Origin: Pseudomonas fluorescens
Lineage (GTDB): Bacteria; Pseudomonadota; Gammaproteobacteria; Pseudomonadales; Pseudomonadaceae
DNA: 64,000 nucleotides
Direction of reading: 5' to 3'
Assembly (NCBI RefSeq): GCF_902497895.1
Contig: NZ_CABVHQ010000021.1
Coordinates: 1-64,000, forward strand
Shown: positions 5,251-56,334 of the stretch, one piece after another
Layout of the letters: every line of letters starts with the position of its first letter
Numbering within the stretch: position 1 is the stretch's first letter
Position numbers and translations under genes: made by a program
Notes under the pieces: generated by a model
The model's input: the letters and a program-made list of their open reading frames with translations, nothing else
Told to the model about the DNA's origin: nothing
The model's database searches: none

Positions 5251-5263
5251 AGTCTTCGCCCAT

Positions 5264-5303: not shown

Positions 5304-5323
5304 AGATCTTCGCCGACCATAAG

Positions 5324-5427
5324 AAAAAGATCGCAGCCTGCGGCAGCTCCTACGCCGACCGAGTACACCCGCGATGTTGGGCGTGCATGCAACCCCCTGT
5401 AGGAGCTGCCGCAGGCTGCGATCTTTT
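5324..5427. repeat. REPIN (two inverted REP arms)
   Basis: AAAAGATCGCAGCCTGCGGC and its exact inverse form the outer arms, including CAGCTCCTAC/GTAGGAGCTG, with about 45 bases between them. It lies between convergent mqo and the PA4642-family gene. Confidence 0.85.
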
Positions 5428-5440
5428 GATCTTGCTTCTG

Positions 5441-5728
5441 TCAGCCGCGAGCCTTGTTGATCAACTCGATGTATTCGTCGGCATGACGCTGATCCTGGAT
5501 CAATGCGACAAAATCCTTGCCCTGCTCGTCCTTGCCATTCAAGTCGTAACCGGCTTCGACAAAGAACCCCAGAAAGCGCTCGAAATCGTCGATACGCAGG
5601 CCACGGTAGGCCTTGATCAGTTTGTGCAGGGACGGCGATGTGGCGTCAACCGGTTCGAAATCGAGGAACAATTTGATCTGCGCATCGCCGATCTCGTCAC
5701 CAATCACTTGTTTCTTATCTTTACGCAT
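5441..5728 (-). CDS. PA4642 family protein
   Basis: A 95-aa soluble, charged protein (MRKDKKQVIGDEIGDAQ) with a helical composition typical of the PA4642 family of uncharacterised gammaproteobacterial proteins. The C-terminal part (GYDLNGKDEQGKDFVALIQ) resembles family members I recall. The neighbour order mqo - PA4642 - PA4643 - WbuC - hpt is conserved with P. aeruginosa, supporting the call. Function unknown. Confidence 0.85.
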   Translation of the reverse strand: MRKDKKQVIGDEIGDAQIKLFLDFEPVDATSPSLHKLIKAYRGLRIDDFERFLGFFVEAGYDLNGKDEQGKDFVALIQDQRHADEYIELINKARG

Positions 5729-5791
5729 TGCCGACTCCAGCTCGCAGACGTTTCACGGGGCGGGCAGTTTACCCCCCGCCAGCCTCTGCGC

Positions 5792-6277
5792 TCAACGCGC
5801 GCGTACGGCCCCGGTGTGCAAATCGGCCCAGACATGCCCGTTGGCGTAGCTGAGGAACTGGCAATAGACCGTGTCATTGCGCAGCAGATCGATGATCACC
5901 CGGTACTGGGCCATCGGGTAATACAGGGTCAAGGTCCTGGTTTTTTCGTCGAACACCGGCTTCTTCAGGCTTTTACTTTCGCCATCGAAATTGACCAGCA
6001 CCTGATTGATTGCTGCGCCCTTGTTCAGCGGCTTGCCCTTCAAACGGATCAACACCGGTGACGTCACCGGGATCGGCTGCTGATTGGATTGACGCTGGCT
6101 GCCGACCACCACCGAGTATTCGGTGACCTGCAGCAGCTGCTGGTGCTCAGGCTGAGTGTCACGCAGGGTCAGATCGTCTGGCGGCAGGAACTGCCCGTGC
6201 ATCGGCGCTGGCGCGGCCGCCAGCGGCAGGCAGAGTGTCAGTAACACAGCAGCGCAACTGCGAATCAAAAGGTTCAT
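5792..6277 (-). CDS. Secreted hypothetical protein (PA4643-like)
   Basis: A 161-aa protein with a cleavable signal peptide (NLLIRSCAAVLLTLCLPLAAA, cleavage near residue 22). The periplasmic domain is beta-rich, with TEYSVVVGSQRQSN and a repeated hydrophobic/charged pattern. The start at 6277 has GGAG six bases upstream; the longer open frame to 6694 overlaps the WbuC gene and is not used. Position matches PA4643. No catalytic motif is seen. Confidence 0.75.
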   Translation of the reverse strand: MNLLIRSCAAVLLTLCLPLAAAPAPMHGQFLPPDDLTLRDTQPEHQQLLQVTEYSVVVGSQRQSNQQPIPVTSPVLIRLKGKPLNKGAAINQVLVNFDGESKSLKKPVFDEKTRTLTLYYPMAQYRVIIDLLRNDTVYCQFLSYANGHVWADLHTGAVRAR

Positions 6278-30415: not shown

Positions 30416-31528
30416 TTAGCTTGGATTTACGTCCTGATTGAACACGGCGGCATCAGTGCGTTTAAACTTGATGCGCCTGGTCCATGCGATTGCGGGGCGT
30501 TCGACAAGCATGTATGCGATGGCTGCGAATACGATGCAGGCCGCCACTGCAAGGATAGTAGCTAGTACGTCCGAAGCAATGCCAGTCGGCATTAAACGCC
30601 GGAAAAGGCGCATGAAAGTACCAATCACTGGTGAATGGAATAAATACAGGCTGTAGGAAATCAAGCCAATCTTTTGCACAGGATAGCTGGACAAGAAACC
30701 AAGAGTGGCGGAGCTGATAACCAGAAAACAAAACGAAAGACCCGTCAATCCGACAGCAACTGTAAATGAATTTTTGCTTGCAACACCGATGAGGAGAACT
30801 AATGCGCAGTACCCAACGGCAATATATCGGCTTTGCTTCGTGCCTGTAAGGGTCTGAGCACACAGAACCCCTGCCATGAAGCTGAACCAGAACGCGATAA
30901 ATCCACCCTGCCAACCTATCGAATGAATAAGCCCGGTGGGCCAAAGTAGCGCCAATAATGCACTGACCCAAATCGAAACACTTCGCATTTGTAAAGCCTC
31001 GCCGCCTCTGGCTTGATCGGCTAGCCAAAGTAGCACGGCAAATGCGATGTAAAACTGCACCTCGATACAAAGTGTCCAGAACACCGTTATGATGTTTTCG
31101 ATGCCAAGGAAACCTTGAAGAAACATCAAGTGTCCGAGAATGTCCGTGATACTGGGAATTTCAATCTCGTTCTGCCCAGACATATGTTTTACGGCAATCA
31201 CCAACACACCAAGTGCAACGGCGACATAGTATGGAGGGGCAAGGCGCACCAAACGGCGCGCGACAAAATTCGCAGCGTTCGCAGTGTTCATCGGCACGAG
31301 AAATGTTGTAGCCGCCATGACGATTCCGCTTAATACGAAAAAGACAGGCACGCCCAAATGACCAGCGTCAAAGACTATATATCTCAACCAGTCCGGAATT
31401 GCTGCCAAGAGGGTTGGAATGTGATTTCCCTCGGATAAATGAAACAGAACCACCCAAAGGGCTGCAAAGCATCGTAATGCGTCAACCAGGGCGAGGCGAT
31501 GTTTATTGTCAGTGGTGACTCCACTCAT
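30416..31528 (-). CDS. Acyltransferase-3 (OafA/YrhL) family membrane protein
   Basis: A 370-aa polytopic inner-membrane protein of the family that O-acetylates or succinylates polysaccharides. The first helix has the family RxxAxxxVxxxH-type pattern (DALRCFAALWVVLFHLSEG) and the second the FFVLSGIVM signature; RRLVRLAPPYY and ISYSLYLFHSP follow. About ten helices. It is 51 bases downstream of the A-T-acyltransferase fusion gene and likely co-transcribed. A hairpin (30359-30375) without T-run lies after it. Probably decorates the EPS made by this island. Confidence 0.9.
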   Translation of the reverse strand: MSGVTTDNKHRLALVDALRCFAALWVVLFHLSEGNHIPTLLAAIPDWLRYIVFDAGHLGVPVFFVLSGIVMAATTFLVPMNTANAANFVARRLVRLAPPYYVAVALGVLVIAVKHMSGQNEIEIPSITDILGHLMFLQGFLGIENIITVFWTLCIEVQFYIAFAVLLWLADQARGGEALQMRSVSIWVSALLALLWPTGLIHSIGWQGGFIAFWFSFMAGVLCAQTLTGTKQSRYIAVGYCALVLLIGVASKNSFTVAVGLTGLSFCFLVISSATLGFLSSYPVQKIGLISYSLYLFHSPVIGTFMRLFRRLMPTGIASDVLATILAVAACIVFAAIAYMLVERPAIAWTRRIKFKRTDAAVFNQDVNPS

Positions 31529-31579: not shown

Positions 31580-34411
31580 TCACGCCACTCGCTCAATCCT
31601 ATCCGAACTGCTCCTTTTCCCTCCTCCATTCCAGCGCATTACAACAATTCGAACGCCCTTGTTCCAGGCGTAACCAACCCCAATGCCACCGGCTATGGCA
31701 ATGGCTACCGCGAGCGCCGGCTCGTCATAGATGTGACGGGCCAGGGACTTAAACTGAAAATGCGTCAAATAAATATACAACGTTGACGACGCTATTAATG
31801 CAAGTCCCCGCGCGATAATGGCGGGTACGGGAATAGACCTGATCCAAATCACCGCGAGAACGGCAGGCACGGTTATATCAATATTTTCCCTCATGTCGAA
31901 TCCGGGCAATTCACGCCCGAAGACTGCTAGAATATCTTGCCCGCCCATCATAATGATAGCAACCGCACTGACGACCAACTTCTGGATTCTTGAATTGGCA
32001 TAGTGAATTGCCATTCCGAGCACCATGATCGCAAGATAGTGTTGTGGCACTCTGTTATAGAGCGCTGTAGCATCAAACAAATACTTACTCATTAGAATGT
32101 CAGCCACTACCAATACGCATGACACAATGACAAGATAACGAAACGGGTTCGACTTTATTATTTTTCTGACGCGCTCGAACGACAGGGCGAACCCAATGAT
32201 TATTATCATTTGCAAGAGAACTTCAATGTACCAATAGGCAAAGCCACCTGCGAGATACGGTGAAAACCAATTCGAAATCAGCAATAATGTTTGCCAATGA
32301 ATCCTGTCAAACAGCGTTTGAATCAACATAGTGTAGAGTATTGTCGGTGCCGCGATACTGATAATGGATTTGACAAGCGTACGCACGTTGCCGCGTTCAT
32401 TTATGGCTTGAAGTTGAAATCTTGCCAGGCTGATTCCGGACACTACAAACAATACCGTCGTCTCGCCTGAAACTGGCCATTTTGAAAAAAGGTGAAAATG
32501 GCCGACAACAATAAACAGTATAGATATTACCCGTAAAAATACCGGAATCTCCATTGCCCGAATTGACAACGTTGAAGACGTGGCTTTATTGGTTAGCTCA
32601 CAAAGTTCACGTATTGGTGTTATCTCCCATTGATCTGGCAGATGCCCAATAAGTTCTTCAAGTACCATTGAAGCCTGAACAAACGAGAGTGAATCCCCAC
32701 CCAGCTCCACGAACGATAAATTTGCATCGATGTGCGTGACTTCGAGTATTTCAGACCATGCATCCGCCAGCTTGAGCGCGAGCGGCGATAGATCCTGGCT
32801 CGAATTGACTGATGCCTCATCCGTGTTACCGACAATCGGAGGCAGCGCCCGCTTATCAATCTTTCCATTCGGTGTAAGTGCAATAGTGTCCAGAAAAACG
32901 AACAACGCCGGCACCATATACTCAGGGAGTTCATTGCTGATATGTTCACGCAATTCAACAGATGAAACAGGCTTTGTTGAAACGCAATAAGCAACCAGCC
33001 TTACGCTCGAACGCTCATTGACGCCCAAAACAACGCACTGCCTGATCCGCGGATGTCGTGATATTGCGCCTTCGATTTCAGTGAGTTCAATTCGATGGCC
33101 GCGAATCTTGACCTGATTATCGCCGCGCCCTAGAAAGCTGACACTGCCATCTGAAAGATAAGTGCCAAGGTCGCCGGTTCTATAACAAATGTCGTTCTCG
33201 ACATGGGTAAATGGATTGGCCACAAACTTGTCCCGGGTTTGCGCTATGTCACTCCAGTAACCCAGCGACAAATAGGGACTGCGTATAAGAATTTCTCCGA
33301 CCTCTCCTTCGCATACCAACTGATTAGCGTCATCCACGACCAGCAGTTGTGCACCTTCAATTCCTTTCCCAAGCGGAATTTTGGTATTATCGGCTTCAGG
33401 GTCGACATGATGGTAAGCCATTGCCTGCGGAGTTTCCGTCGTGCCGTAAAAGTTTACGCTAACGGCATTGGGTGCAACAACACGCATTTGTTCGTATAGC
33501 GTACTGCTTAATGCATCTCCGCCCCAAAACAGATAGCGCAGATCGTTGAATCTTAGTCCATTAAGTTTTGCTCCAGTTTCAATAAGTTTTCCCAGTGGGG
33601 GTGTAAGGTGAATAATGGATATTCCATGTTTATGTATCCACGCCACCAAAGCTGAAGGATCTATGACAGTCGACTGTGCAGGAATGATAACTTTTGCACC
33701 CATGGAGAGAGGCGTAAATACGTCCCTGTATACAGGGTCATGACCAAGCCCGGAAAGCAAGGAAAAGCAATCGTTTTTTGATAACGAATGACGCTGGGTA
33801 TGCCACTCGATAAAATGCACCAGAGGCGCATGATTTGTCACAATCCCCTTCGGTTCGCCGGTGCTGCCCGATGTGAATGTGATATATGCTGGATTACAAG
33901 GGTTAACTTCTGGCAAAGTCTTTTGATCAAAGGCGAACTCATGCAGTGATTCGGTGGGAATTTCCGGGACTCTAACGATCTGTGGATAAGAACTCTCTGC
34001 CCCTGGCTCAAGATGCTCGAGATTGAGGTCGGCTGTAGCCTCACCGCATAGCAGAACAAAGGAAGGCTGAAGCGCTCGAATGATTTGCCCTACGCGCGCA
34101 GGTGGATATGCAATGTCGGCAACTGTGAACGTCAATCCGGCACGCGAGGCGCCGAGCATTGCATAGACCAACCCTGCACAGCGACTCGAAACAATAACAA
34201 CCCGGTCGGATTCGGTAGCGCCATTTCCTATCAAGAAGGAAGCAATGCCCCGGCTTATCTCTTCAAGCTGACGATAGCTACACGTCGCGTCTTGAGAGAT
34301 TACCGCAATTGCATCAGGCGAGCGTCTCGCATGTTGTAAGAAGTCCATGAATATCGGACGTTCGACACAATATTCCAGGTGAAGCGTTGGGTTTGGGCGG
34401 GCATCCTGCAT
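31580..34411 (-). CDS. Adenylation-carrier-membrane acyltransferase fusion (NRPS-like)
   Basis: A 943-aa three-part protein. Residues 20-520: adenylation domain with P-loop FTSGSTGEPKG (178-188), GHDPVYRD (223-230), YGTTET (322-327), YRTGDLG (410-416) and PNGKIDKR (514-521). Residues 545-610: carrier domain with phosphopantetheine site LGGDSLSF (S574). Residues 622-930: about ten hydrophobic helices resembling acyltransferase-3, with H638 in helix 1 and FVVSG (655-659). The A domain most resembles that of Lys2 aminoadipate reductase. Inference: it activates an amino or carboxylic acid, loads it on the carrier and hands it to the membrane domain for transfer to a polysaccharide, like DltA-DltC-DltB in one chain. 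Substrate unknown. AT-rich compared with the core genes. Confidence 0.85.
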   Translation of the reverse strand: MQDARPNPTLHLEYCVERPIFMDFLQHARRSPDAIAVISQDATCSYRQLEEISRGIASFLIGNGATESDRVVIVSSRCAGLVYAMLGASRAGLTFTVADIAYPPARVGQIIRALQPSFVLLCGEATADLNLEHLEPGAESSYPQIVRVPEIPTESLHEFAFDQKTLPEVNPCNPAYITFTSGSTGEPKGIVTNHAPLVHFIEWHTQRHSLSKNDCFSLLSGLGHDPVYRDVFTPLSMGAKVIIPAQSTVIDPSALVAWIHKHGISIIHLTPPLGKLIETGAKLNGLRFNDLRYLFWGGDALSSTLYEQMRVVAPNAVSVNFYGTTETPQAMAYHHVDPEADNTKIPLGKGIEGAQLLVVDDANQLVCEGEVGEILIRSPYLSLGYWSDIAQTRDKFVANPFTHVENDICYRTGDLGTYLSDGSVSFLGRGDNQVKIRGHRIELTEIEGAISRHPRIRQCVVLGVNERSSVRLVAYCVSTKPVSSVELREHISNELPEYMVPALFVFLDTIALTPNGKIDKRALPPIVGNTDEASVNSSQDLSPLALKLADAWSEILEVTHIDANLSFVELGGDSLSFVQASMVLEELIGHLPDQWEITPIRELCELTNKATSSTLSIRAMEIPVFLRVISILFIVVGHFHLFSKWPVSGETTVLFVVSGISLARFQLQAINERGNVRTLVKSIISIAAPTILYTMLIQTLFDRIHWQTLLLISNWFSPYLAGGFAYWYIEVLLQMIIIIGFALSFERVRKIIKSNPFRYLVIVSCVLVVADILMSKYLFDATALYNRVPQHYLAIMVLGMAIHYANSRIQKLVVSAVAIIMMGGQDILAVFGRELPGFDMRENIDITVPAVLAVIWIRSIPVPAIIARGLALIASSTLYIYLTHFQFKSLARHIYDEPALAVAIAIAGGIGVGYAWNKGVRIVVMRWNGGGKRSSSDRIERVA

Positions 34412-34677
34412 GTTGTTTGTATACTCCGCATGATCTATACGAGGTTAACGTCGTGACCCGAAAATCCTGATTGAGATGACGCAGAATTTCTCGGTCGCCG
34501 AGGCACAAAAATGCAGCGTAGTTCCGCGGAACTTCCTAGCGAAGAACATGGAGCGTTGAGACCCATTGAGTGGTTCAGGCCGAGTGATTGAACGTTAGTG
34601 CAGAGTTGGCGGCGGCGCCAGCGCGAGTCCGGAAATGGGGACAGATTTATTTTTCTTCAGTGGCCGCTGCGGGTCGA
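34412..34677. other. Non-coding stretch upstream of the fusion gene
   Basis: No gene seen. It must contain the promoter of the 34411 minus-strand gene. GGGGACAGATTTATTT near 34637 resembles sequence often found beside transposase genes in Pseudomonas, consistent with an insertion-scarred border. Confidence 0.35.
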
Positions 34678-34832
34678 AGCTGTGTGAAAACGTTTTAGAG
34701 AAGGTTTGACAGTCAGAAAAACAACGAACATCGCGTTCCTACGCAAATTTCAGGTCTGCCCATGACCCAACCGTTTGTAGTCTTCACGTAGCAACGCAGA
34801 CTTCAAAGCGATGCCTGCGTTTCCACACAGCC
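34678..34832. mobile_element. Internally deleted IS remnant with inverted ends
   Basis: AGCTGTGTGAAAACG at the left and CGTTTCCACACAGCCT at the right form imperfect inverted repeats about 155 bp apart, with no ORF between. Ends of the type GGCTGTGTGAAAACG occur in several Pseudomonas insertion sequences, so this may be a collapsed copy. The family is not assigned. Confidence 0.45.
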
Positions 34833-34869
34833 TGGGTCGATTCCGGCCGGTCGCGACTGTTCACCAGCG

Positions 34870-35112
34870 TCGAGCGCTGGCCTTGGCGGTCGTCCAACAC
34901 TGCCACGACAATGCCGCAGCAGAACGCTTCTTCAAGCTGCTGAAACGGGAGCGGATCAGGCGCAATATCCAGGCACCCGGCAGGAAGCTCGCGGTGACGT
35001 GTTCGATTCCATCGAGATATTTTGCAACCCAAAACGCCGGCACGGGCTCAACAACCAGCTATCCCCGGTAGAGGTTGAAAAGCGACATTTATTGAGCTTG
35101 GAAAGTGTCTAG
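34870..35112 (+). pseudogene. IS3-family transposase OrfB remnant
   Basis: Only the C-terminal end of a DDE integrase-type transposase remains. One frame reads CHDNAAAERFFKLLKRERIRR, the conserved region after the catalytic Glu. After a frameshift near 34975 another frame gives QEARGDVFDSIEIFCNPKRR then HGLNNQLSPVEVEKR up to the TAG at 35110. The upstream part of the element is missing. It directly follows the inverted-end remnant. Confidence 0.75.
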
Positions 35113-35289
35113 AAAATCCGGGGTGATTCAGTGACTGATTGCATAGTGCTGCTACAGTAATAGTACACGTCGAGTAAAAGCCAGAGGTGGATTGACGCTA
35201 CCCGTCTTGGGGCGCCTGGCGTGAGCTGTGAAGCGTGGCTAAAAATGACTGATCGATCGCAGAGGAGCTCCTGGATGAATGGCGTGCTA

Positions 35290-35980
35290 GTGAAACCCAC
35301 GTCGAAGTGAGTCCAGGGCTGGGTGATCATGGGTGGTCTTATCACGCGTATGAGTAGCTTGCCGGTGACGTCAACGCTCTCTAGCGAGGATAGTTTTGAA
35401 GTGAATCGCGCCATCATTGAGTGTGAGGGGCCTAAGCAGATGGTTTATTCCTGGTTCCAACGGCGTAGTCGGTGCTTTGGCTCGCAATCGCAGGGATGGT
35501 GCTTTGGTGAGCAGCTGGGGGACTGGAAAAAACAGTTCGGTTTGCTGAACAAGGTTGTTGATCATGATCCTCAGCATCTTGAAGTCCAGGTAAAATTGGG
35601 GCGCATGCCGCTGGCTGCCGGTCGATTGGACCAGGCTCTTGCCCCGAGTGATACTGATACCATGAAGTTGGATGCTGTTACTCCGTTGTGCAACATCGGC
35701 ATCTTCAGGCTTTGCGAGTGCGGGGATGTTGCCTCAAATCTACGCGAGACTTTAAGAGTGTTCCAGCATATGGGTGAGAATCTTTCCTTGGTTCTTTTAT
35801 CGTTTCGCTGGAGCGCCAGACGTGGATCTATAGCGAAGCTTATCCAGGGGGTTATTATGGAAACAAGAGTCCATTGCGAATGGGTCTGCGAGACTTTTAT
35901 TTGCTCGCCAGTGTGTTGCTGGCACCAGGAGAGCTGTCAATGTGATGCGTATGATTGAAGCTGCGATGCACCGCTGAGGG
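35290..35980 (+). pseudogene. Degraded EPS-locus genes (EpsI-like and TPR-like fragments)
   Basis: A decayed stretch with an open frame (35323-35958) that has no ribosome site and shifts between themes. Residues around 26-48 read VNRAIIECEGPKQMVYSWFQ then RRSR, resembling the VNR...YYWFQQRGR end of exosortase-associated EpsI proteins. Next comes a TPR-like piece (LLNKVVDHDPQHLEVQVKLG). Further on another frame gives YGNKSPLRMGLRDFYLLASV then LLAPGELSM before a stop. I read these as fragments of several genes joined by deletions. Identity is moderate to low; decay itself is clear. Confidence 0.45.
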
Positions 35981-36071
35981 CTGATCAGTTAATAAATAAT
36001 CCTGTTTTTATTACCTTTTTTGTTGGCTGGCAGGTAAGCGTTTTGGCGTCTCAATTCAATGAGGTCTGATT

Positions 36072-37496
36072 ATGATATTCGAGCCCAGCAGTAGCCGTTC
36101 CATACTCCAGCGACGAAGCAGTACCAGTAACGCTATTCAGGCCGGTCTCGACTTTGTTGCTGTAACAGGCGTCGCGTGGTATTTGATCGATTATCATATC
36201 GGCTTTATAACGCCGGATTATGTCATCATGCTCCTGTTGCTACTTGGGGCGTTGGCCATCGTGTACGACCATTATGCCATTTACCGAAGCAATGTAGGAT
36301 TTGCCGTCAAAGCCTTTAAACTTTTCAAGGCGTGGTCTGCCACTTTTGGTTTTCTCGTTGTCATGGCCTTTCTTACCAAACAAAGCGAACAGTACTCGCG
36401 CTTATTGGTGGGGCAGTTATTTGTTGTTGGATATTTCGCTCAGTTGCTTTTGCACCTCGCGATACGCGAAGTGCAGAAGAAATTCTTGACCCACCCAGCT
36501 CACTTGGAAAACGCTCTTATTATTGGCTCAGGGGGGCTGGCTAACTTCCTTCACAAAAAAATAAGCAATAATCCCTGGCTAGGTGAACGGGTGGTCGGTT
36601 GTGTATTGATTGGGGCGGACGATGATCAGGGCAAGGAGGGCTCAGAAAGCGCGCAGCGTTTGTCGATACTGGGCAATATCTCCGACCTCGATGAATTAGT
36701 TGTGCGACATTCCATTCGTACAGTATATTTCGTTACGCCTCTGGATGGCTCGGAAATCATTAAGGATGTTTACTTAAAACTGCTTGATAAGCACATTAGT
36801 ATTAATTGGGTACCTGACATTTTTTCTCTGCGATTAATCAATCACAGCGTTCGTGAAATTGCCGGTATTCCCGTGCTGACCTTGTCTGAAACTCCGCTGA
36901 TGGGGATGCGTCTGTTTCTGAAGAATCTTGAGGACAAGGTCTTGGCCTTTCTCATCTTGCTTTTTGCGGCGCCATTGCTGATGGCTATAGCGATTGCCAT
37001 CAAGATCGATAGCCCTGGGCCGGTGTTCTTTCGACAGAAGCGCATGGGGTGGAGTGGGGGAGTTTTTCGTATCTGGAAGTTCAGAAGCATGGTCGTCCAT
37101 CAGCTAGAAGACGGCGTCGTCAAGCAGGCAGAAAAGAATGATCCGCGCAAGACCAGGGTTGGAGCCTTTATTCGGCGAACTAGCCTGGATGAGCTACCAC
37201 AGTTGTTCAATGTTTTAATGGGGGAAATGTCCCTGGTGGGGCCGCGCCCGCACGCTATTCAACACGATGCGCAGTACTCGCACGGCATCGCAGACTACTT
37301 TGCGCGTCACAATATCAAGCCAGGCATCACAGGCCTGGCTCAGGTGCGTGGCTTTCGCGGTGAAACGAGAGATATAGAGCAGATGGCTCAGCGTGTTGAG
37401 TCTGACATTGAGTACATCAACAACTGGTCGCTCTGGCTCGATTTCGTCATTCTGCTGCGAACGCTGCTTGCCTTCACCGGCAAGCGTGCCTACTAG
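36072..37496 (+). CDS. wcaJ: Undecaprenyl-phosphate glucose phosphotransferase (WcaJ/EpsB-type)
   Basis: A 474-aa priming transferase that starts EPS repeat-unit assembly by moving a hexose-1-phosphate to undecaprenyl phosphate. Four N-terminal helices (25-130), a CoA-binding-like fold ([15 protein letters not shown]), a fifth membrane segment ([20 protein letters not shown]), then the catalytic sugar-transferase domain with [29 protein letters not shown] and LVGPRPH. GAGG lies seven bases before the ATG. It stands alone, between decayed regions, away from the main EPS operons, but no other priming enzyme is present. Confidence 0.93.
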
Positions 37497-39275: not shown

Positions 39276-40303
39276 TTGTTTATTAGCCAGGGAGAGGTTA
39301 TTTGAGATTGCAAATCAACGAAATAAATGCACGCAGTTGAAGTTCGATAGCCAAGCACGTTTTTCAAGGGCTGTAGCAAGCCATAGTTCGCGCACATATA
39401 TAGTCCCCCATTTTGAATTCACATTAAACGTTCTTTCTTGCGAAAAATTCGCAATCCTCTCCATAGAATCAAGATTGCTTGGCAACATCCAGTAACGCGC
39501 CCTTCACCCAGATCGAGTAAAGATGCTACTTCGGCGTTTTGCAAGGTAGTTGCCGCATCAGCCGTGTTTTTTATGCCCTCATTTTCAGCGCCGGTTGCTC
39601 CCTCTCCGGGTTGAGTTTGACGGCATCGATGGGGTGCCAATTCCGGATCGCGTCTAACCAGCGATGCGAGTGTTCAATATGAGCTTGCTGGTACAACGCA
39701 TGATGCTTGGTCAGCACCTCTTGATTCTCGCCGCGATGTCGCTGCGCCAGGGTTACGAAGCGGCTATGGCGGTAGCAGCTGCCTTGAAAGACATGACGGA
39801 CACCTGATCGCGGCCCAAAGAACACAAAATGGGGTGAGTTTTACTCGGACTCGATGCAATCGAGGCAAACGTGAGCAGATTGCAGCGTTGGGTAGGCCGC
39901 GGCTGTAGCCCTGAATCCTCACTGTGCATTCTTCGAGTGCTGGCCAGGCGCTGATAGACCCCGACGGGGCTATCCCTCTCGATCCGCCCGCATGCCGTTT
40001 CACGCTGAGCGGAAAGGCCAAAGGCGATGCGGGCTTATGGTGCCCCTGATCCTTGAGGCCGTCCTGTTGCGGGCTAATGCCGCCAAATCCTGAAGCTATT
40101 TCCGGCGGATAGAGTCCACTTGATTTATGACTGACTTGTTTATTGTGACGTTATTTTGACGGATCTGACCTGATTTTCTATTTTTATCTATGGCGATGAC
40201 GGACTATTGACGTAATAGCCATGTGCCTACTATGCTCACTTTAACCTGATAAAAATTCTTTCATCCAACAAAAGAATATTCCTCTGTGCAGGGAGCGGTG
40301 TTT
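39276..40303. other. Intergenic stretch with an IS remnant, otherwise unassigned
   Basis: Apart from the IS3-family fragment at 39571-39790 I find no gene. The open frames at 39764-40021 and nearby have no ribosome site and no recognisable protein. Around 40130-40270 the DNA is AT-rich and probably holds the promoter of the 40304 gene. Confidence 0.4.
39571..39790 (-). pseudogene. IS3-family transposase C-terminal remnant
   Basis: The minus-strand frame reads SRFVTLAQRHRGENQEVLTK then HHALYQQA and IRNWHPIDAVKLNPER. This is the C-terminal pattern of IS3-group OrfB transposases (FVTPEQRHxGxD...ALYxxA...NWxPxxxVxLNPE). The catalytic core and the N-terminal half are absent. Confidence 0.65.
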
Positions 40304-40792
40304 ATGCATAAGACACGTTTCATTAAATCCACTTTGTTGTTAATACTCCTGAATGGTGCGTCTGCTTTTAGTGCTCAGGCGGCCAGTTTGGCCTATGACT
40401 CTAGTTGCATGAGCAACTCTGGCAAAAAGTCAGGGGCTCAACTCGGCATGCTGATAGAAGAGCACGCGGGTGGCGCGCTGTTTACTTTAAAAAACAGCCT
40501 TGGCGTGCCTTTGTCGATCAGCGATATCTACTTCGATTCCGATGATGGCCAACCTGCCCTATTTAGCAGTATTGCTTATCATTCTGACTCGGGGGTGGGT
40601 GTTTCCTTCGACAGCCAAGCTGCACTGGCAAATCTTCCAGGTGTTGGACCGCATGTCCAAGGTATAGGCCTGGCTGGGACAGCCGATTCTTATATCAAGC
40701 AACAGAGTGCTGTACCGCTTCCTGCGGCAGCATGGTTATTTTCTTCCGCGTTGTTTGGTTTTATTGTGTTCGCCAATCGACGGAAAGTGTAG
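40304..40792 (+). CDS. PEP-CTERM-like protein with VPLPA-type sorting signal
   Basis: A 162-aa exported protein. An N-terminal signal peptide (1-26, ending SAQA) is followed by a Ser/Gly-rich mature region of about 110 residues. The C-terminus is a complete tripartite sorting tail: VPLPA (137-141), hydrophobic segment (142-157) and RRK (159-161). Such tails are cut by exosortases of EPS-linked systems. The ATG at 40304 has GGAG eight bases upstream. No exosortase gene is in this window. It is convergent with the EPS glycosyltransferase operon. Confidence 0.8.
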   Translation: MHKTRFIKSTLLLILLNGASAFSAQAASLAYDSSCMSNSGKKSGAQLGMLIEEHAGGALFTLKNSLGVPLSISDIYFDSDDGQPALFSSIAYHSDSGVGVSFDSQAALANLPGVGPHVQGIGLAGTADSYIKQQSAVPLPAAAWLFSSALFGFIVFANRRKV

Positions 40793-44071: not shown

Positions 44072-44275
44072 TTACTGTAGGTACTCCCACAGCAGTGCAG
44101 TTATCAGGAGCGTCAACAAGCACCACGGCGTTTGCTCCGCCCCGACCTCACTATAGACCAAACCAAATGCCTTGCAGACTCGCAACCTCTCAGAAGGCCA
44201 AATAAAAAACGGTACGAAAGGCATACTCTCTCTATAATCAAATATCGACCTGATGAGTGCTTGTATTCGCTGCAT
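44072..44275 (-). CDS. Small membrane protein, 67 aa, unknown
   Basis: A short frame with a good ribosome site (GAGG five bases before ATG 44275). It starts inside the last 38 bases of the DUF535 gene, suggesting coupling. The sequence has FVPFFIWPSERLR in the middle and ends with one hydrophobic helix (WCLLTLLITALLWEYLQ). I do not recognise a family. Its place between DUF535 and GT4 genes suggests an accessory EPS role, if expressed. Confidence 0.45.
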   Translation of the reverse strand: MQRIQALIRSIFDYRESMPFVPFFIWPSERLRVCKAFGLVYSEVGAEQTPWCLLTLLITALLWEYLQ

Positions 44276-45185
44276 GACTGCCTCTTAATACCCTGTCTGT
44301 TTTTTTAAAAACATCATCAAGAAGCTCATAACGCCTGCGGTACATGGCGCGTTTTTTTGAAGGAATATCATCAAGCGCCTTCTTGGACAGGGCCATGGGA
44401 ATTTCAAAAAAGTCTTCGCGCTCTGACGGAATCGCTCCATGCTCCAACCATATGACATCATAATTAGCCGCCAGGTCTTGAGCTTTTTGAGCCCCAAAAT
44501 ACGGATGACGATGATGACGATATCCATCCCCTATTGCATAAATCTTTTCAACACCCACATTTCTTGCAATATATTTAATAGCTTCGATCAGAAAACTTCT
44601 TGGCCGCAGGCCTTCAAAATCTTTTGTCAGCCCTCTATAAATATCCAAAGACCTGTCACTCTCCACGCCTTTGTGTATCCCTTGAACTGCACCGATAAAA
44701 ATACATAACTCAACCTCCGTACGACACAAGGTAAAGGCTATTGATGCAATACGTAAATCACCCTGAAACAAATTCAGCACCAACTCTCCTTCCCGCATAA
44801 ACCATACCGGACGGTCCAGAACCAAGGAACAACCAACAGAGCACGCCGACAGGTCACTCAACATCAAGCTGTCATTTCGTCCCAGAAGTAATAAACGCGG
44901 ACAGCTTTTTGTGACCACTTCGTAATGCGAGGCCAAGACACTAAGTCTGTCCTGAGATCTCCAGCACCTACTGATGTACGGCCAATGAACAACACCAAGA
45001 CAATCACTTCCCAACTGCTCAAAACGGGTCTTGCCCAAGGCATTGGTCATACGCCACAAAAACAACTTGAGCTCGGACCAGTTTCTTGCCATTAAAATGA
45101 GCAATCTAAGTTTGTTATTCAACGCTCTAAAAGAATACCCTGCATGCAAAAAAAACGCGCTTCTTAATATCAGCCGATAATTCAT
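44238..45185 (-). CDS. DUF535 (VirK/YbjX-like) protein
   Basis: A 315-aa protein of the DUF535 family. Recognisable core: FIGAVQGIHKG, GLRPRSFLIEAIKYIARNVG, KIYAIGDGYRHHRHPYFG and YDVIWLEHG. VirK-type proteins are linked to envelope and virulence functions but have no known enzymatic activity. AT-rich relative to both neighbours, so possibly acquired separately. Eight bases after the GT2 gene. Confidence 0.85.
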   Translation of the reverse strand: MNYRLILRSAFFLHAGYSFRALNNKLRLLILMARNWSELKLFLWRMTNALGKTRFEQLGSDCLGVVHWPYISRCWRSQDRLSVLASHYEVVTKSCPRLLLLGRNDSLMLSDLSACSVGCSLVLDRPVWFMREGELVLNLFQGDLRIASIAFTLCRTEVELCIFIGAVQGIHKGVESDRSLDIYRGLTKDFEGLRPRSFLIEAIKYIARNVGVEKIYAIGDGYRHHRHPYFGAQKAQDLAANYDVIWLEHGAIPSEREDFFEIPMALSKKALDDIPSKKRAMYRRRYELLDDVFKKTDRVLRGSHAANTSTHQVDI

Positions 45186-48969: not shown

Positions 48970-50415
48970 CTAACTTATATTATTATTCAAATGTTCAGCC
49001 AACCTCAGAGCCAACTGAAGGATAGGCATGGTGGGATTGCTGGCACCGCCTGTAGCAAAAACACTACTTCCAGCGACGTAAAGATTTTCAGTGCCGAACA
49101 CTTTGCAGTTTTCGTCGACCACCCCAAACTCGGGCGCAGTCGCCATCCGCGTGGTCCCCATATGATGAGCATGGGGACTCACTTTCAGTGGCAAAGAGAT
49201 GTCATACACGCTCTCATCCAACTTGACGAAGCCAAGCCCTGTTTCGGCAAAACGCTTTGCCACTTCGAGCCCTATGGCCTTAATGGTGTGCCTGTCCTCA
49301 GGGCTTAGTTCCCAATTGATGTTGACCTTGCCCATCCCTAATTCATCCCGTTCTTCGAGCAACGAGATGCGGCTTTTCTGGTTGGGAAACTGTTCAATCA
49401 ACGTGCCAATTACCCCATCCCCCGGACAATTGAACTTGGCAATAAAATCGATCTTATGCGCCCCGCCTATTTCACAGGTGAGATTCTCGAAAAAGCTCTT
49501 GATTGCGGCGGTTCGCCCATAGGTTTTCACTTCGGACACCAGCGAAGCAGACACATTCCCCTTACCTGACCAGTGCTCCTTCACAAATGCATCGGTAGTG
49601 AAGAACTGTCGAGGCTCTCTACTCTGCCCCTCACTCAGAATGAAGGTACCCATATCGATATTCAGGTGTTCCATGAAACAACGACCGACGAAACCATCCC
49701 TGCTTACGATACCGCCAGCTACCAGGGACTCACTGTTGAGCAGTTGCCTGGCATTCTCGATCGCGCCCGTCGCCAGAATGAAGTATTTTGCTCTGACTCT
49801 TTCTCGGAGCCGGTCGTAATCAGACACTACTACAGCCGCTATGCGGCCGGTCTTGTTATCAAACTCAAGATCGACGCAGTTGCAATTGATGAAGACATCA
49901 AGCCCCTCGGTCTCGCGAAGATCCTTGGCATATTTTTGTGCAAATCGCGTCGGCGGACTGAGCAAGAAACGATCAGCTTCAAATTCGCCGCCGCGCAAAG
50001 CAGCATTAATGGTCTTGAAGCCCGACTCCAGCGGAAGATCCAAAATATCCATGGCCCCCGGCAGATTACGCTCGATCTCGGAAAACGCTATGGGCCAACC
50101 GGGCAAGCTACCGGGAGGGGGCACGGTAAAGTCGGATGGCTCGAAGGGTCGGCAACGCCCGGCCCAGTGATTGGAGGTGCCGCCAAGAAAGCGCAAGCGC
50201 GTTGTCTCAACGTAGGCATTGAGGCCTGACGATGAGCACTTGTAGAGAGTTTGCGAGCGCTGCGAATATTCGTGCCCGCCCCCCTCGGCAAGCATCACGC
50301 GCCAACCATACCCGGCCAAACGCAACGCCAGCGTGATGCCGGCCGGCCCACCCCCTATGATGCAGAAGTCATATAGTTCGCGGAGCTCTTTCTGTGACTG
50401 GTAATCTTTTATCAT
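48970..50415 (-). CDS. GMC-family FAD oxidoreductase
   Basis: A 481-aa flavoprotein of the GMC superfamily. FAD-binding FCIIGGGPAGITLALRLAGY near the N-terminus, then FLGGTSNHWAGRCRPFEPSDF, and the C-terminal catalytic block HHMGTTRMATAPEFGVVDEN with SSVFATGGASNPT. The start at 50415 is used; the frame runs further into the small Tat gene upstream. It probably oxidises a sugar or alcohol. Its neighbour with a Tat signal suggests a periplasmic two-subunit enzyme in which the small subunit carries the folded GMC subunit out. Confidence 0.88.
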   Translation of the reverse strand: MIKDYQSQKELRELYDFCIIGGGPAGITLALRLAGYGWRVMLAEGGGHEYSQRSQTLYKCSSSGLNAYVETTRLRFLGGTSNHWAGRCRPFEPSDFTVPPPGSLPGWPIAFSEIERNLPGAMDILDLPLESGFKTINAALRGGEFEADRFLLSPPTRFAQKYAKDLRETEGLDVFINCNCVDLEFDNKTGRIAAVVVSDYDRLRERVRAKYFILATGAIENARQLLNSESLVAGGIVSRDGFVGRCFMEHLNIDMGTFILSEGQSREPRQFFTTDAFVKEHWSGKGNVSASLVSEVKTYGRTAAIKSFFENLTCEIGGAHKIDFIAKFNCPGDGVIGTLIEQFPNQKSRISLLEERDELGMGKVNINWELSPEDRHTIKAIGLEVAKRFAETGLGFVKLDESVYDISLPLKVSPHAHHMGTTRMATAPEFGVVDENCKVFGTENLYVAGSSVFATGGASNPTMPILQLALRLAEHLNNNIS

Positions 50416-50423
50416 GCTCGCGT

Positions 50424-50606
50424 TTACCGAAAATGCTGGGCAGGCAACACCCACCCATTGATAACAACAAACTCGGATTTAACAGCAGAAGGCCGGGCAA
50501 CGACTCTGGAAAATCCAAAGGTCAGCCCCCCCACACTCAATAGGGCGCACGCCCGGAGAAGGCCTCTGCGACCAATCAAAGAGGTATTCAAATCAAGTTC
50601 ACTCAC
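50424..50606 (-). CDS. Small twin-arginine signal protein paired with the GMC oxidoreductase
   Basis: A 60-aa protein. Start is GTG 50606 with GGAG nine bases upstream. The N-terminus is a Tat-type signal (SLIGRRGLLRACALLSVGG), followed by about 25 residues ending INGWVLPAQHF. The stop lies nine bases before the GMC start. Small Tat-signal subunits beside GMC dehydrogenases act as hitchhiker partners for export; this one is much shorter than known gamma subunits. Confidence 0.65.
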   Translation of the reverse strand: MSELDLNTSLIGRRGLLRACALLSVGGLTFGFSRVVARPSAVKSEFVVINGWVLPAQHFR

Positions 50607-52117: not shown

Positions 52118-53644
52118 ATGCCTGAGCACTTTCGCGCGTTAATCGTCATTCTGGTTCTTGCCGGCGTCGTTTTTGCCTTTGCACGCCGCCCAGCAGCAGA
52201 CCTGATCCCGTCCAGCGACTTCACTCGCCGCCGCGATCTGTGGTTCGCATTGACGCTACTGGCCTTTGTCTCGCACAGTTTCTGGGTGTATGCGGGCATT
52301 ACCGCTATCATTTTGACCGTCGCACGACAACGCGAACGCAACCCCATGGCGCTGTTTTTCCTTCTGCTGTTTCTCATCCCACCGGCCCCGGCGCAGATTC
52401 CCGGCTTCGGCCTGATGAACTATTTTTTTGCACTTGACCATATTCGCCTGCTCACATTGTGTGTGTTGTTACCGGTTTTTTTCACGCTATGCAGGCGAGC
52501 AAGCACACTGACGTTCGGACGCTCCTGGCCTGACAAACTGCTAGCGGCCTACCTCTTGCTGGCGAGCGTGCTTTACCTGCGCGAAACCACGCTGACCGAC
52601 ACTTTGCGCCAGACGCTCTACCTGTTCATCGACGTTTTTTTGCCTTACTACGTCGCCAGCCGGGCACTGAAGGAACTCAGCGACTTCAAGGACGCTCTGT
52701 TGGGCTTTGTACTCGCCGCCATGGTGCTGGCGCTTATTGGTCTCGTCGAATTTGCCCACCATTGGCTGCTGTACAGCGCGCTGATCAGCGCCCTGGGCAT
52801 GAACTGGGAAATGTCCGGCTACTTGAGCCGTGGTGGCTCACTACGCGCCAGCGTCACCACCGGCCAGGCAATTGCACTGGGTTACGTCATCAGCGTGGCC
52901 ATCGGCTTTTATCTGTTCCTGCGCGAGAGTGTACGCAGCCGACTGCAGCGACGCCTCGGCGCCCTCTTGCTGGCCGCCGGCCTGTTTGCACCGCTGTCGC
53001 GTGGCCCCTGGATCGGTGCTGCCACCATCATCGCCGTGTTCATCGCCACCGGCCGTAGCGCCTTCAAACGCCTGATACTGCTGGCGCTCGCCGGAGTGCT
53101 CGCCCTTCCCTTGCTGGCCATCGTGCCCGGCGGGCAAAAAGTGCTTGAGCTGCTGCCGTTCATCGGCACGCTGGAAACAGAGAACATCACGTACCGGCAG
53201 CGCTTGATTGACAATGCAGTGATCGTCATCCAGCGCAACCCCTGGCTGGGTTCTTTCGATTACCGCAACACGCCTGAAATGCAGTCCATGATTCAGGGCC
53301 AGGGCATCATCGATATCGTGAATACCTATATCGGCTTGGCGCTGAATATCGGCCTGATCGGATTGACGCTATTCGTGGGTTTTTTCGCCACTGTGCTGCT
53401 CGGCATCCGCACGGCGATGCGTTCGTTCCCCAACAAAGACGATGAGGCACGCCGACTCGGACGTGCGCTGTTCGCGACACTGGCCGGGATACTGGTGATC
53501 ATCTTTACCGTTAGCAGTATCACGGTAATCCCCGTGGTGTATTGGTCGGTGGCTGGACTGGGCGTGGCCTATGCTCAGATGGCGCGCAGGCTCAGGCACA
53601 CTGAGACTGCAAGCATTGCGAGTGTCAACCTTCAACCCCGGTAA
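52118..53644 (+). CDS. O-antigen ligase/polymerase (Wzy/WaaL) family protein
   Basis: A 508-aa membrane protein with about 12 helices and a large periplasmic loop. The family glycine/arginine features LRASVTTGQAIALGYVISVA and LSRGPWIGA, followed by NPWLGS, are those of the O-antigen ligase/polymerase domain. In this setting it most likely polymerises EPS repeat units. It is coupled to the hydrolase gene by a TAATG overlap. Confidence 0.9.
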   Translation: MPEHFRALIVILVLAGVVFAFARRPAADLIPSSDFTRRRDLWFALTLLAFVSHSFWVYAGITAIILTVARQRERNPMALFFLLLFLIPPAPAQIPGFGLMNYFFALDHIRLLTLCVLLPVFFTLCRRASTLTFGRSWPDKLLAAYLLLASVLYLRETTLTDTLRQTLYLFIDVFLPYYVASRALKELSDFKDALLGFVLAAMVLALIGLVEFAHHWLLYSALISALGMNWEMSGYLSRGGSLRASVTTGQAIALGYVISVAIGFYLFLRESVRSRLQRRLGALLLAAGLFAPLSRGPWIGAATIIAVFIATGRSAFKRLILLALAGVLALPLLAIVPGGQKVLELLPFIGTLETENITYRQRLIDNAVIVIQRNPWLGSFDYRNTPEMQSMIQGQGIIDIVNTYIGLALNIGLIGLTLFVGFFATVLLGIRTAMRSFPNKDDEARRLGRALFATLAGILVIIFTVSSITVIPVVYWSVAGLGVAYAQMARRLRHTETASIASVNLQPR

Positions 53645-56334
53645 TGCTCATGGCCACTTTTTTTCGCCGCACCCAGATGCTGCTCTTGGCTCTCCTGTCC
53701 CTTGCTATTTGGCCTTTTAGTACCTGGGCGTCGGACTGGGTCGCCAGCGTGGATGAGCACAGCGGCCTGCCAATGCTGGTGCGCGGCGGCAGCCCTGTAG
53801 TTTCTTCTTCATTCACCTTTTGGGGAAGCGACTGGGCGTGGACGCCTTTTCCGACCGCATTCAAAGTGAACACCCCCTATAGTTACTCCCTGACAGGCCA
53901 GAACAAACCGCTGGATTTCGACTTGACTGCGCAGGTTCAGAAGGAAGACCAGCAGAAGTTGACTTGGAACTTTGCCCTGGATGCACACAGCATGAAGCCG
54001 GGCGTGATGGGCGGGGGCATCGTTTTCAAGTTCGATCCTGCCCTTTTCGCTGGAGAAATGGGTGAGCCGGTTTTGCTACCCGACAACCGCGGCTGGTCGT
54101 GGGGGAATGCACAAGGGAGACGCCTCGAAATGCGTTTTGAGCCTGCACTGGCGAGAGTGTACTTTGAACCAGGTGATAGATCTGAAGTGCGTGCTTTTTT
54201 CTACAAAAACACGATCAAACCCGGCCGCCAAAATTTCAAAGCCACCTTGAGCGTGTCTGGCGATGTGGAGCTCGGCCCAACCACTACCGAGCGCTTCGGG
54301 CTGGTGGACCCGAAGAGCTGGCCGAGTGACAAGCTCGACTGGAATACTTCGCCGGTCGATCTGTCCTTTCTTAACGCTCACGAAAGACCAGCCGGCAAGC
54401 GCGGCTTCGTCAAAGCATCCGGCGAGCAATTGCTATTCGCGGACAACACCCCGGCGCGCTTCTGGGGCACCAACCTGACGTCCTATACGCTGTTCCGCAC
54501 GCCAGACGATGTCATCAAGCAGCAGGCGAAACGCCTGTCGGCACTCGGTTTCAATCTCGTACGACTGCACCACCATGACTCCCCATGGGTGAGCCCAAAC
54601 ATCTTTCGCGACAGCAACCTCACACATAACACCCAGCAACTAAGCCCGGATTCGCTGAAAAAAATTGACTGGTGGATCAAGTGCCTGAAAGACGAGGGCA
54701 TTTACGTATGGCTCGATATGCACGTCGAGCGAGCCCTCACTGCAAACGACAACATCTATGGCTTCGATGAAATGCCAAAAAATGACCATAACAACGCCGA
54801 CCTCAAGGGCTATGCGTATGTAAATATCACCATTCAGCAGGCGATGAAGCGCTTTACCGAAGCCTATTTGACCCATGTAAACACCTATACCGGCCTCGCC
54901 TATAAAGACGATCCGGCGATCGCCGCCGTACTGATCACCAACGAAAACGACGTCACCCAGCACTTTGGCAACGTCCTATTGCCAGACAAACAAGTGTCAA
55001 AGCACAACCAGGTCTACATGGCCGAGGCCGAGGCCTTTGCCAGACAGCACAATCTATCCACAAGCCAAACCTGGCGCTCTTGGGAGCCTGGCCCCGCCAA
55101 GCTGTTCCTTAACGATCTGGAGCGACGTTTCAACGTAGACATGATTCAGCACCTACGTAAATTAGGCGTGAGGGTACCCATCGCCACGACCAGTAGCTGG
55201 GGCGGCGATGGCCTAAGCTCCCTGCCGGCCCTTACCGCCGGCGACCTGATCGATGTCCATAGCTACGGGGGCCTTGGGCAGCTAGAGAAAAACCCGCTTA
55301 CCAGCGACGGTTTACTGAACTGGATTGCTGCCGGCCAAGTCGCAGGCAAACCCCTGACCGTCACCGAGTGGAACATTGAACCCTTTCCGACACCCGACCG
55401 CCACTCGCTGCCACTCTACATGGCCGGCACCGCCAGCCACCAAGGCTGGGATGCGCTGATGCAATATGCCTACAGCCAGGAGCCGCTAACCGGCGGATGG
55501 ATAAATGCCGACAACTGGCACGCCTATAACGACCCTGCAATGCTGGCCACCCTGCCTGCCGCCGCCTTGCTTTATCGCCGCGCAGACGTTCGCGAAGCAA
55601 ACACGACCTATGTCTTCGCGCCGACGCCAAGCACTCTATTCAACCAACTTATAACACCGGCCAACGCTGCTCTACTGCGCACAGCCATGGAGAAAGGCAA
55701 GCTGCAAATCGCCATGCCACAGACGCCGGAACTGCCTTGGTTGCAACAGGGCATTATCTCGAGCAATGCTCAGGTGTTTCAGGACCCTGACCAGTCGCTG
55801 CTGGACGCCAATGCCAGCGAGTCCACGACAGACACTGGAGAGCTAAAGCGCAACTGGAAACAAGGCATCTACACCATTGATACGCCGCACACCCAGGCAG
55901 CAACCGGCTGGATCGGCGGCGAGTCGATCAGTCTTGGCAACATCCAGGTTCAAGTGAAGACCGCCAATGCCAGTGTGGTGGTACAAAGTCTGGACGACGC
56001 GCCTGTCGGCCGATCGCAGGATTTACTGATTTCACTGGGCACCCGCGCCATCCCCAAAGACGACGACAAAATACCTTTTTATGTTGAGCCCCTCGAAGGC
56101 ACGCTAACAATCCAGGCACCGCAAGGCTTGACACTTTTCACCCACGGCACCCTTGCGCAAACGAAGAAGTTGCCCGCCACCTACCTGGATGGACGCTATA
56201 CGATCAAGTTCGACGGCTTGCAGGCGTCTAATTGGTTATTTTTGAAAAAAAGCGTCCCGCAAGCTACAGCCTCAGGCGACGGACAGCCAAGCCCCGCCCG
56301 TACAGCATCATCCAGCGCACCGGCGACTCAATAA
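53644..56334 (+). CDS. Secreted glycoside hydrolase, GH-A clan (GH5-like)
   Basis: An 896-aa protein with a signal peptide (about 1-29). An N-terminal beta-sandwich of about 260 residues precedes a TIM-barrel. The barrel carries NLVRLHHHDSPW, acid/base E434 in LITNENDV and nucleophile E575 in LTVTEWNIEP, the positions expected in clan GH-A. A C-terminal beta-domain and a Pro/Ala/Ser tail follow. It probably trims or releases the polysaccharide in the periplasm, as PslG does for Psl, though not the same family. The start overlaps the wzy stop. Confidence 0.85.
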   Translation: MLMATFFRRTQMLLLALLSLAIWPFSTWASDWVASVDEHSGLPMLVRGGSPVVSSSFTFWGSDWAWTPFPTAFKVNTPYSYSLTGQNKPLDFDLTAQVQKEDQQKLTWNFALDAHSMKPGVMGGGIVFKFDPALFAGEMGEPVLLPDNRGWSWGNAQGRRLEMRFEPALARVYFEPGDRSEVRAFFYKNTIKPGRQNFKATLSVSGDVELGPTTTERFGLVDPKSWPSDKLDWNTSPVDLSFLNAHERPAGKRGFVKASGEQLLFADNTPARFWGTNLTSYTLFRTPDDVIKQQAKRLSALGFNLVRLHHHDSPWVSPNIFRDSNLTHNTQQLSPDSLKKIDWWIKCLKDEGIYVWLDMHVERALTANDNIYGFDEMPKNDHNNADLKGYAYVNITIQQAMKRFTEAYLTHVNTYTGLAYKDDPAIAAVLITNENDVTQHFGNVLLPDKQVSKHNQVYMAEAEAFARQHNLSTSQTWRSWEPGPAKLFLNDLERRFNVDMIQHLRKLGVRVPIATTSSWGGDGLSSLPALTAGDLIDVHSYGGLGQLEKNPLTSDGLLNWIAAGQVAGKPLTVTEWNIEPFPTPDRHSLPLYMAGTASHQGWDALMQYAYSQEPLTGGWINADNWHAYNDPAMLATLPAAALLYRRADVREANTTYVFAPTPSTLFNQLITPANAALLRTAMEKGKLQIAMPQTPELPWLQQGIISSNAQVFQDPDQSLLDANASESTTDTGELKRNWKQGIYTIDTPHTQAATGWIGGESISLGNIQVQVKTANASVVVQSLDDAPVGRSQDLLISLGTRAIPKDDDKIPFYVEPLEGTLTIQAPQGLTLFTHGTLAQTKKLPATYLDGRYTIKFDGLQASNWLFLKKSVPQATASGDGQPSPARTASSSAPATQ

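Follow-up and report, generated by a model that had tools for sequence, protein, structure and literature searches.

A predicted adenylation-carrier-acyltransferase-3 fusion protein of Pseudomonas fluorescens and its relatives as candidate carrier-fed membrane transferases

Glycine is transferred to lipid A in Vibrio by AlmEFG, a system in which the adenylation, carrier and transferase logic is divided among separate proteins and in which the transferase belongs to a family other than acyltransferase-3 (AT3). The AT3 domain itself is 10-helical, with a cytosolic N terminus, and the acyl-coenzyme A (acyl-CoA) spans its pore (PMC9833829). According to earlier descriptions, AT3 proteins use acyl-CoA, and the possibility that a carrier protein serves as donor was weighed and set aside (PMC9558356). 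The AT3 fusions named in the available portions of two papers are those with SGNH and alanine-racemase domains, and a fusion with an adenylation domain and a peptidyl carrier protein (A-PCP) is not among them (PMC9833829, PMC9558356). Here we describe such a fusion, encoded at positions 31580 to 34411 on the minus strand of a 64,000-nucleotide stretch of Pseudomonas fluorescens DNA (assembly GCF_902497895.1, contig NZ_CABVHQ010000021.1, positions 1 to 64,000), which is referred to as the window.

We consider it probable, with some reserve, that the fused protein is a self-contained AT3 transferase that draws on its own phosphopantetheine carrier and not on acyl-CoA, and that it moves an aminoacyl group outward. 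In this mechanism, the cytosolic adenylation domain would use ATP to activate an α-amino acid, with Asp 225 at the amino-group position, and the activated amino acid would be loaded onto the phosphopantetheine of Ser 574. With the first transmembrane helix (TM1) following it directly in the chain, the carrier would dock where the AT3 pore opens to the cytosol. There its phosphopantetheine arm, which is identical to that of acyl-CoA, could thread the pore so that the thioester reaches His 638 near the outer face; the aminoacyl group would then pass to an extracytoplasmic acceptor through a hydroxyl or an amine of the latter. A widely available envelope glycan or lipid as acceptor would fit lone, scattered genes better than one exopolysaccharide (EPS). 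In another branch of the family, a non-α-amino-acid activator may supply other acyl groups that are moved likewise.

Architecture and distribution of the fused protein

The 943-residue frame extends without a break from 34411 to 31580 (minus strand) and contains the following features.

31580..34411, minus strand: fused A-PCP-AT3 gene, 943 aa (open reading frame (ORF) with ATG start; full length in relatives)
33254..34336, minus strand: AMP-binding domain, residues 26-386, pocket code DPRHFGFQAK (Pfam)
32861..33079, minus strand: AMP-binding_C domain, residues 445-517, with the catalytic Lys 517 (Pfam)
32648..32773, minus strand: PP-binding (carrier) domain, residues 547-588 (Pfam)
32690..32692, minus strand: Ser 574, predicted phosphopantetheine attachment site, LGGDSLSF (alignment)
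31676..32536, minus strand: AT3 membrane domain, residues 626-912 (Pfam and profile-profile comparison)
32498..32533, minus strand: R-X10-H motif of TM1, Arg 627 to His 638 (alignment)
31760..31762, minus strand: His 884 of the YLTH motif in the TM9 region (His in 56/56 fused rows)

An initial annotation, made from the sequence alone, had read adenylation, carrier and AT3 domains in one 943-aa chain, and this reading is borne out by the domain search. All four Pfam domains exceed their curated cut-offs: AMP-binding with 226.4 bits (cut-off 29.9), AMP-binding_C with 45.5 (24.5), the carrier PP-binding domain (PF00550) with 24.6 (20.8) and, by a modest margin, Acyl_transf_3 (PF01757) with 35.7 (31). 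The NCBIfam model TIGR01733 for the amino acid adenylation domain scores 339.3 bits against a cut-off of 317.4, and Lys 517 is the A10 Lys of nonribosomal peptide synthetase (NRPS) adenylation domains. The phosphopantetheine site read earlier at LGGDSLSF is likewise upheld, as Ser 574 lies within the PP-binding domain and Ser is kept in 52/52 aligned rows. The genome itself contains one match to the phosphopantetheinyl transferase family. Thioesterase, condensation and reductase domains are absent from the Pfam matches of the fused protein at E up to 10. A promoter and terminator scan gave results near shuffled expectation.

Full-length relatives that are 71-84% identical occur in 10 named Pseudomonas genomes. 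For the family search, a carrier-AT3 profile built from 12 rows was used with E up to 1e-30. Among 398 same-genus genomes 34 have a match, every one in a single open frame of 931-1359 residues, and in a phylum sample 9/398 genomes match, the window's own included. Seven of the eight other positives of the phylum sample have the match in frames of 866-944 residues, and the eighth (G650) in a frame of 342 residues; the fusion is thus intact in 34/34 same-genus and 7/8 other-genus positives. Relatives are present in alphaproteobacteria and actinobacteria. The AT3 part is also matched by 86 plasmid records, and the best 60 of these come from genera that include Rhizobium, Leisingera, Rhodococcus, Paracoccus, Mycolicibacterium and Arthrobacter. 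Five plasmid copies that were examined (L100-L104) are single ORFs of 814-895 residues, and many plasmid copies carry only the NCBI label 'AMP-binding protein'. On six distant members, Pfam finds AMP-binding in 6/6 and PP-binding above cut-off in 4/6, and Acyl_transf_3 is above cut-off in two, just below it in one and without a match in three. When the genomes of 57 relatives were searched with the whole protein, the matches listed covered the A-PCP part only, the window itself excepted. Among viral contigs, 41 stretches fit a sequence pattern, and none encodes a relative. The earlier suggestion that the same fusion should be looked for across genomes was rewarded in 34/398 same-genus genomes and beyond the genus, and by these predicted frames the fused architecture is conserved.

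The exception in the phylum sample is a split relative (locus L157 of G650, positions 3295-6271 of the locus), in which an A-PCP ORF overlaps a 338-residue AT3 ORF by 8 nt. As read from its frames, this appears to be a natural two-gene form; a sequencing frameshift is also possible. For Rhizobium bangladeshense, the annotation divides the relative (L024, 11989-14600) into an AMP-binding gene and an adjacent acyltransferase gene, whereas other Rhizobium copies are one ORF.

The membrane domain and its acyl donor

A profile-profile comparison of 56 fused AT3 domains (the window's own row lacking TM1) with 31 canonical AT3s gave a probability of 97.5 and a score of 93.7 over 283 aligned columns. 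As controls, five column shuffles scored 11.8-15.0 and the reversed profile 25.5. R627-X10-H638 aligns with the AT3 motif RX10H, YLTH aligns with the canonical TM9 YLxH, and the Pfam match covers profile positions 7-320 of 326. The membrane part matches AT3 along its length by both methods, which agrees with the AT3 resemblance noted initially. Of the ten AT3-like helices in that annotation, the likeness is upheld; as to their number, hydropathy gives 8 segments beyond residue 600 compared with 10 expected, and the domain that Pfam matches is 10-helical (PMC9833829). A sequence search of the PDB with the membrane part yielded no relatives, the best E value of 0.51 being at chance level. By profile, the fused AT3 is a member of the AT3 family, and we place it on a divergent branch because RxxR, one defining AT3 motif, is missing.

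These matches bear on the possibility that the protein is a single-module polymerising synthetase of the poly-ε-lysine or poly-diaminopropionate (PDAP) type, which would export a polymer of carrier-bound amino acids. Such synthetases also have an A-PCP followed by membrane segments, but the published enzymes have six or seven membrane segments with three soluble domains in tandem lying among them (PMC4668381), whereas here the membrane part is AT3-like throughout and the protein ends there. We regard this as the least likely of the explanations considered.

The conserved AT3 residues of TM1, TM2, TM3 and TM9 lie around acyl-CoA (PMC12423673), and Arg14 (TM1) and Arg74 (TM3) contact the CoA 3'-phosphate (PMC9833829). 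Residues at these positions were counted in the 56 fused rows, in the 31 canonical AT3s and in 20 further low-scoring AT3s, the last added as a counterweight because the set of 31 leans to high-scoring AT3s, with one per genome. Two relatives (L106 and L133) were excluded from the 56 rows, their ORF having been missed by a small seed profile, and L024 and L099 are also outside them. In the order fused, canonical and low-scoring, the TM1 Arg is present in 55/56 (the remaining row has Lys), 30/31 and 19/20, the TM1 His in 56/56, 30/31 and 20/20, and the TM9 His in 56/56, 30/31 and 17/20; the TM9 Tyr is found in 56/56 fused rows. A different picture is seen for the polar residue of DxxR, where Asp, Glu, Asn or Gln three positions before the TM1 Arg occurs in 0/56 fused rows as against 31/31 and 19/20 in the two control sets. 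The TM2 Phe (0/56, 31/31 and 19/20), the first TM3 Arg of RxxR (0/56, 31/31 and 18/20) and RxxR near TM3 (0/56 before the TM3 Pro, 29/31 and 15/20) follow the same pattern. At the aligned positions of the fused proteins, the TM1 Arg and the putative catalytic His are thus retained, and the portion of the CoA site in TM2 and TM3 is lost.

The loss of several AT3 signature residues would also be expected of a degenerate AT3 that is kept as an anchor or permease, with the real product coming from the A-PCP together with other enzymes, and the AT3 domain of VanT was once proposed as a transporter (PMC9558356). Such decay is at odds with the invariance of the TM1 His, TM9 Tyr and TM9 His and the near-invariance of the TM1 Arg (55 rows). 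Moreover, the AT3 domain is kept across two phyla, and a comparison of 52 loci reveals no conserved partner gene. We therefore think this explanation very unlikely.

A further reading has the AT3 domain use acyl-CoA, with the aminoacyl-carrier as acceptor, so that an N-acyl amino acid or a lipoamino acid is released. Both activities are present in one chain, and the AT3 donors known so far are acyl-CoAs (PMC9558356). However, the residues lost are those of the acyl-CoA site; the carrier and acyl-CoA would both have to be cytosolic, whereas AT3 transfer runs outward; and neither a thioesterase nor a condensation domain was found in the Pfam search described above. We judge this reading quite unlikely.

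Several observations weigh against transfer from the carrier. Over a wider stretch of residues, RxxR is found in 2/56 fused rows, and most fused rows retain one Lys or Arg near the start of TM3. The split relative L157 has D-G-L-R and an R-x-x-R-like stretch though its A-PCP is separate, and because this split AT3 retains both, carrier use cannot be read strictly from the loss of DxxR and RxxR. In OacB the Asp of DxxR is dispensable (PMC12423673), and for AT3 donors in general acyl-CoA was favoured over acyl carrier protein (PMC9558356). A structure prediction, as had been proposed with the initial annotation, was obtained as an AlphaFold2 model of the PCP-AT3 part from 11 close rows; its mean predicted local distance difference test (pLDDT) of 39 neither supports nor contradicts the fold.

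Activating domains and genomic settings of the family

The letters of the substrate pocket were read against the pocket positions of GrsA, and the aligned rows are not independent samples. The code DPRHFGFQAK is present in 42/42 Pseudomonas rows, and Pseudorhodobacter has DMRHFGFQAK. In eight other rows with an activating domain, the codes begin with SYS or CYS and are without the amino-group-binding Asp. From these codes we infer that the Pseudomonas branch activates an α-amino acid, perhaps with a polar side chain, and that the other branch activates another acid. That branch has a different activating domain, and aminoacylation is suggested for the Pseudomonas-type branch only. Among published codes, DPRHLALLAK corresponds to α-aminoadipate and DPRHVSLLAK to Asn (PMC12283262). 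After DPRH, at best two letters of DPRHFGFQAK agree with these two codes, so that no substrate is named. The adenylation domain matched many NRPS chains in the PDB, and none among the matches listed yields a substrate. Sare0718 was considered as a precedent and rejected, as it is a soluble stand-alone adenylation domain (PMC3360062). Closest to the activating domain of the window are two NRPS modules (L002 and L003) from other families in the same order, with HDPxxRD adenylation domains and the codes DPRHCGFQAK and DPRHLSCQIK. The products of these NRPSs may reveal which substrate the window's domain activates.

A tree of 35 fused and 31 canonical AT3s, made by a quick method and with several long branches, is divided by a single branch into the fused and the canonical set, with a Shimodaira-Hasegawa-like approximate likelihood ratio test (SH-aLRT) support of 100. 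When 50 activating domains are placed in a tree, those of the Pseudomonas type fall among NRPS adenylation domains and group with the L002 and L003 modules (support 100). Of the other fused activators, 10/11 form their own distant clade (support 100), and the eleventh, L102, is found elsewhere on a long branch. Since the fused AT3s form one clade while the activators fall in at least two distant ANL clades, the trees indicate that the activator was exchanged at least once and that carrier and AT3 stayed together. Such constant pairing would be expected if the AT3 takes its acyl group from the carrier, and it suggests this without being proof. Whether an AT3 family has here traded acyl-CoA for an attached carrier, giving an exchangeable carrier-AT3 cassette with varied activators that travels between genomes as a lone gene, is a proposal for which we hold the chances evenly balanced.

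Two genes that flank the fused gene define its setting in the window.

30416..31528, minus strand: second, stand-alone canonical AT3 gene, 370 aa (Pfam 86.2 bits)
36072..37496, plus strand: WcaJ-type undecaprenyl-phosphate glucose phosphotransferase at the edge of the EPS locus (TIGR03023, 466.1 bits, cut-off 410.75)

Both the second AT3 gene nearby and the position at the edge of an EPS locus had been noted initially and are confirmed by these matches. The second AT3 gene starts 51 nt downstream of the fused gene and is a possible operon partner. The WcaJ-type gene lies upstream, is transcribed in the opposite direction and opens the EPS locus. From this arrangement, the initial annotation had seen in the fused protein a dedicated member of the EPS pathway that aminoacylates or acylates the neighbouring polysaccharide. 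The placement of the fused gene between an AT3 gene and WcaJ fits such a role, and AT3 proteins do modify EPS (PMC9558356). The tabulation of neighbours across relatives gives a different result. Among 52 loci, the neighbour family with the widest spread is present in 14 and consists of PAS/GGDEF-type regulators at varying distances and orientations; LysR regulators follow in 13. The commonest neighbour families are not glycan genes. The EPS proteins of the window recur beside one other relative, that of P. arsenicoxydans (L021, the same as L054), and the remaining loci are without EPS conservation at the level examined. A GNAT-like gene of the window's EPS locus is also found at L086. The second AT3 gene recurs beside one relative (L016), where the other compared window proteins are unmatched within 10 kb.

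The nearest genes tell the same story. Among 150 of 152 ORFs picked at 39 Pseudomonas loci, no family occurs in more than 6/75 per batch, and no glycosyltransferase family is among the 25 commonest listed per batch. A conserved operon partner was sought across the 52 loci and among the nearest genes of the 39 Pseudomonas loci and was not found. Of 46 neighbours picked near the split pair L157 and near five further fused relatives, 37 were scanned, and one is a Bac_transf sugar transferase; it adjoins L157, which favors an EPS role. The G+C content of the fused gene is 48.1%, compared with 49.2% for the second AT3 gene, 55.9% for the window and 59.2% for the neighbouring ychF, and this low value together with the patchy presence in 34/398 genomes fits an inserted cargo gene. 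The EPS link is weak, and we consider a dedicated EPS role unlikely. The tie to EPS in the initial annotation is thus not sustained. Because the relatives are lone genes in many bacteria, a portable enzyme that modifies the cell surface is the probable role of the fused protein, rather than a dedicated one in the adjacent EPS locus. The picture that emerges from the compared loci is that of a lone cargo gene that would have landed beside different loci, EPS being one of several landing places.

Other observations were made in these neighbourhoods. Genes for a FecI-like sigma factor and FecR lie near seven Pseudomonas relatives (L068, L075, L076, L078, L079, L082 and L083), most of them with a TonB-receptor-like gene nearby, and three Rhizobium loci have cyclase, YcaO and TfuA genes in common. 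In the window, the 1.66-kb gap upstream of the fused gene (34412-36071) holds remnants, among them a transposase-like stretch recognized by eye and an ORF (35323-35958, plus strand) with a weak match to the exosortase XrtD/EpsI (TIGR04152, 21.9 bits, cut-off 400, E 7.8e-5). The exosortase family PF09721 has no match in the genome. A small, secreted-looking protein with a VPLPA-CTERM-like tail is nevertheless encoded at 40286-40792 (plus strand) in this genome in which no exosortase was found; it scores 62.7 bits with EppA (cut-off 90) and 17.1 with TIGR03370 (cut-off 25.35). The EPS locus also encodes a DUF535 protein (44238-45185, minus strand, 223 bits), a GMC-type oxidoreductase (48970-50454, minus strand, GMC_oxred_C 79.4 bits) and a large protein with a marginal match to GH5 cellulase (53644-56334, plus strand, 27.5 bits, cut-off 23.5).

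Comparison with known systems

A description of AMP-binding, PP-binding and AT3 domains in one protein was not recognized in the literature searched, which did not extend to subscription papers. The parts and the logic are known; we did not find the arrangement, the donor mode or the spread of the family described.

The fused protein resembles an NRPS initiation module or stand-alone A-PCP in exceeding the cut-off of TIGR01733 and in having the NRPS modules L002 and L003 as the nearest relatives of its activator, but it differs in that it is without condensation, thioesterase or reductase domains and ends in an AT3. With the adenylation domain of the aminoadipate reductase Lys2 it shares an HDPxxRD stretch and the code start DPRHF. 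Unlike Lys2, it scores 339.4 bits with TIGR03443, far from the cut-off of 1030.1, and its Pfam matches include no reductase domain. Poly-ε-lysine and PDAP synthetases similarly have an A-PCP and then membrane segments in one chain; the fused protein is set apart from them by an AT3 as its membrane part and by the lack of the three tandem soluble domains.

With the AT3/TmAT superfamily (OafB, OatA, ExoZ, ExoH and others), the fused protein shares PF01757, the RX10H of TM1, and the Tyr and His of TM9, and it differs from these proteins in the N-terminal A-PCP and in the altered acyl-CoA-site residues of TM1, TM2 and TM3. Carriers were set aside as AT3 donors on the cases then known (PMC9558356), and the fused family would be an exception. 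With the carrier welded to the AT3 and the CoA-site residues gone, the donor question becomes testable in one purified protein. If the proposed mechanism is correct, aminoacyl groups would join the known AT3 repertoire, and the family would comprise single-gene systems by which amino acids or other acids are attached to extracytoplasmic molecules.

The nearest parallel in logic is the Dlt system (DltA, DltC and DltB), which likewise combines activation by ATP, tethering to a carrier and a multi-helix protein that carries out the transfer across the membrane. The fused protein is one chain, however, with an AT3 in place of the MBOAT protein and a different amino-acid code. It reaches 221-236 bits with the DltA models of NCBIfam, whose cut-offs are 476-560 (the D-Ala-specific TIGR01734 scores 221.1 against 559.85), and no MBOAT family is among its Pfam matches at E up to 10. 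For these reasons the fused protein is, by its predicted domains, not a member of Dlt, although it would work like it. Of the comparison with Dlt that was drawn initially, the order of activation, tethering and transfer with an AT3 replacing MBOAT has held, while EPS as the target has not. If the proposed mechanism is true, the logic of Dlt would have arisen independently with the AT3 fold at its centre and within one portable gene.

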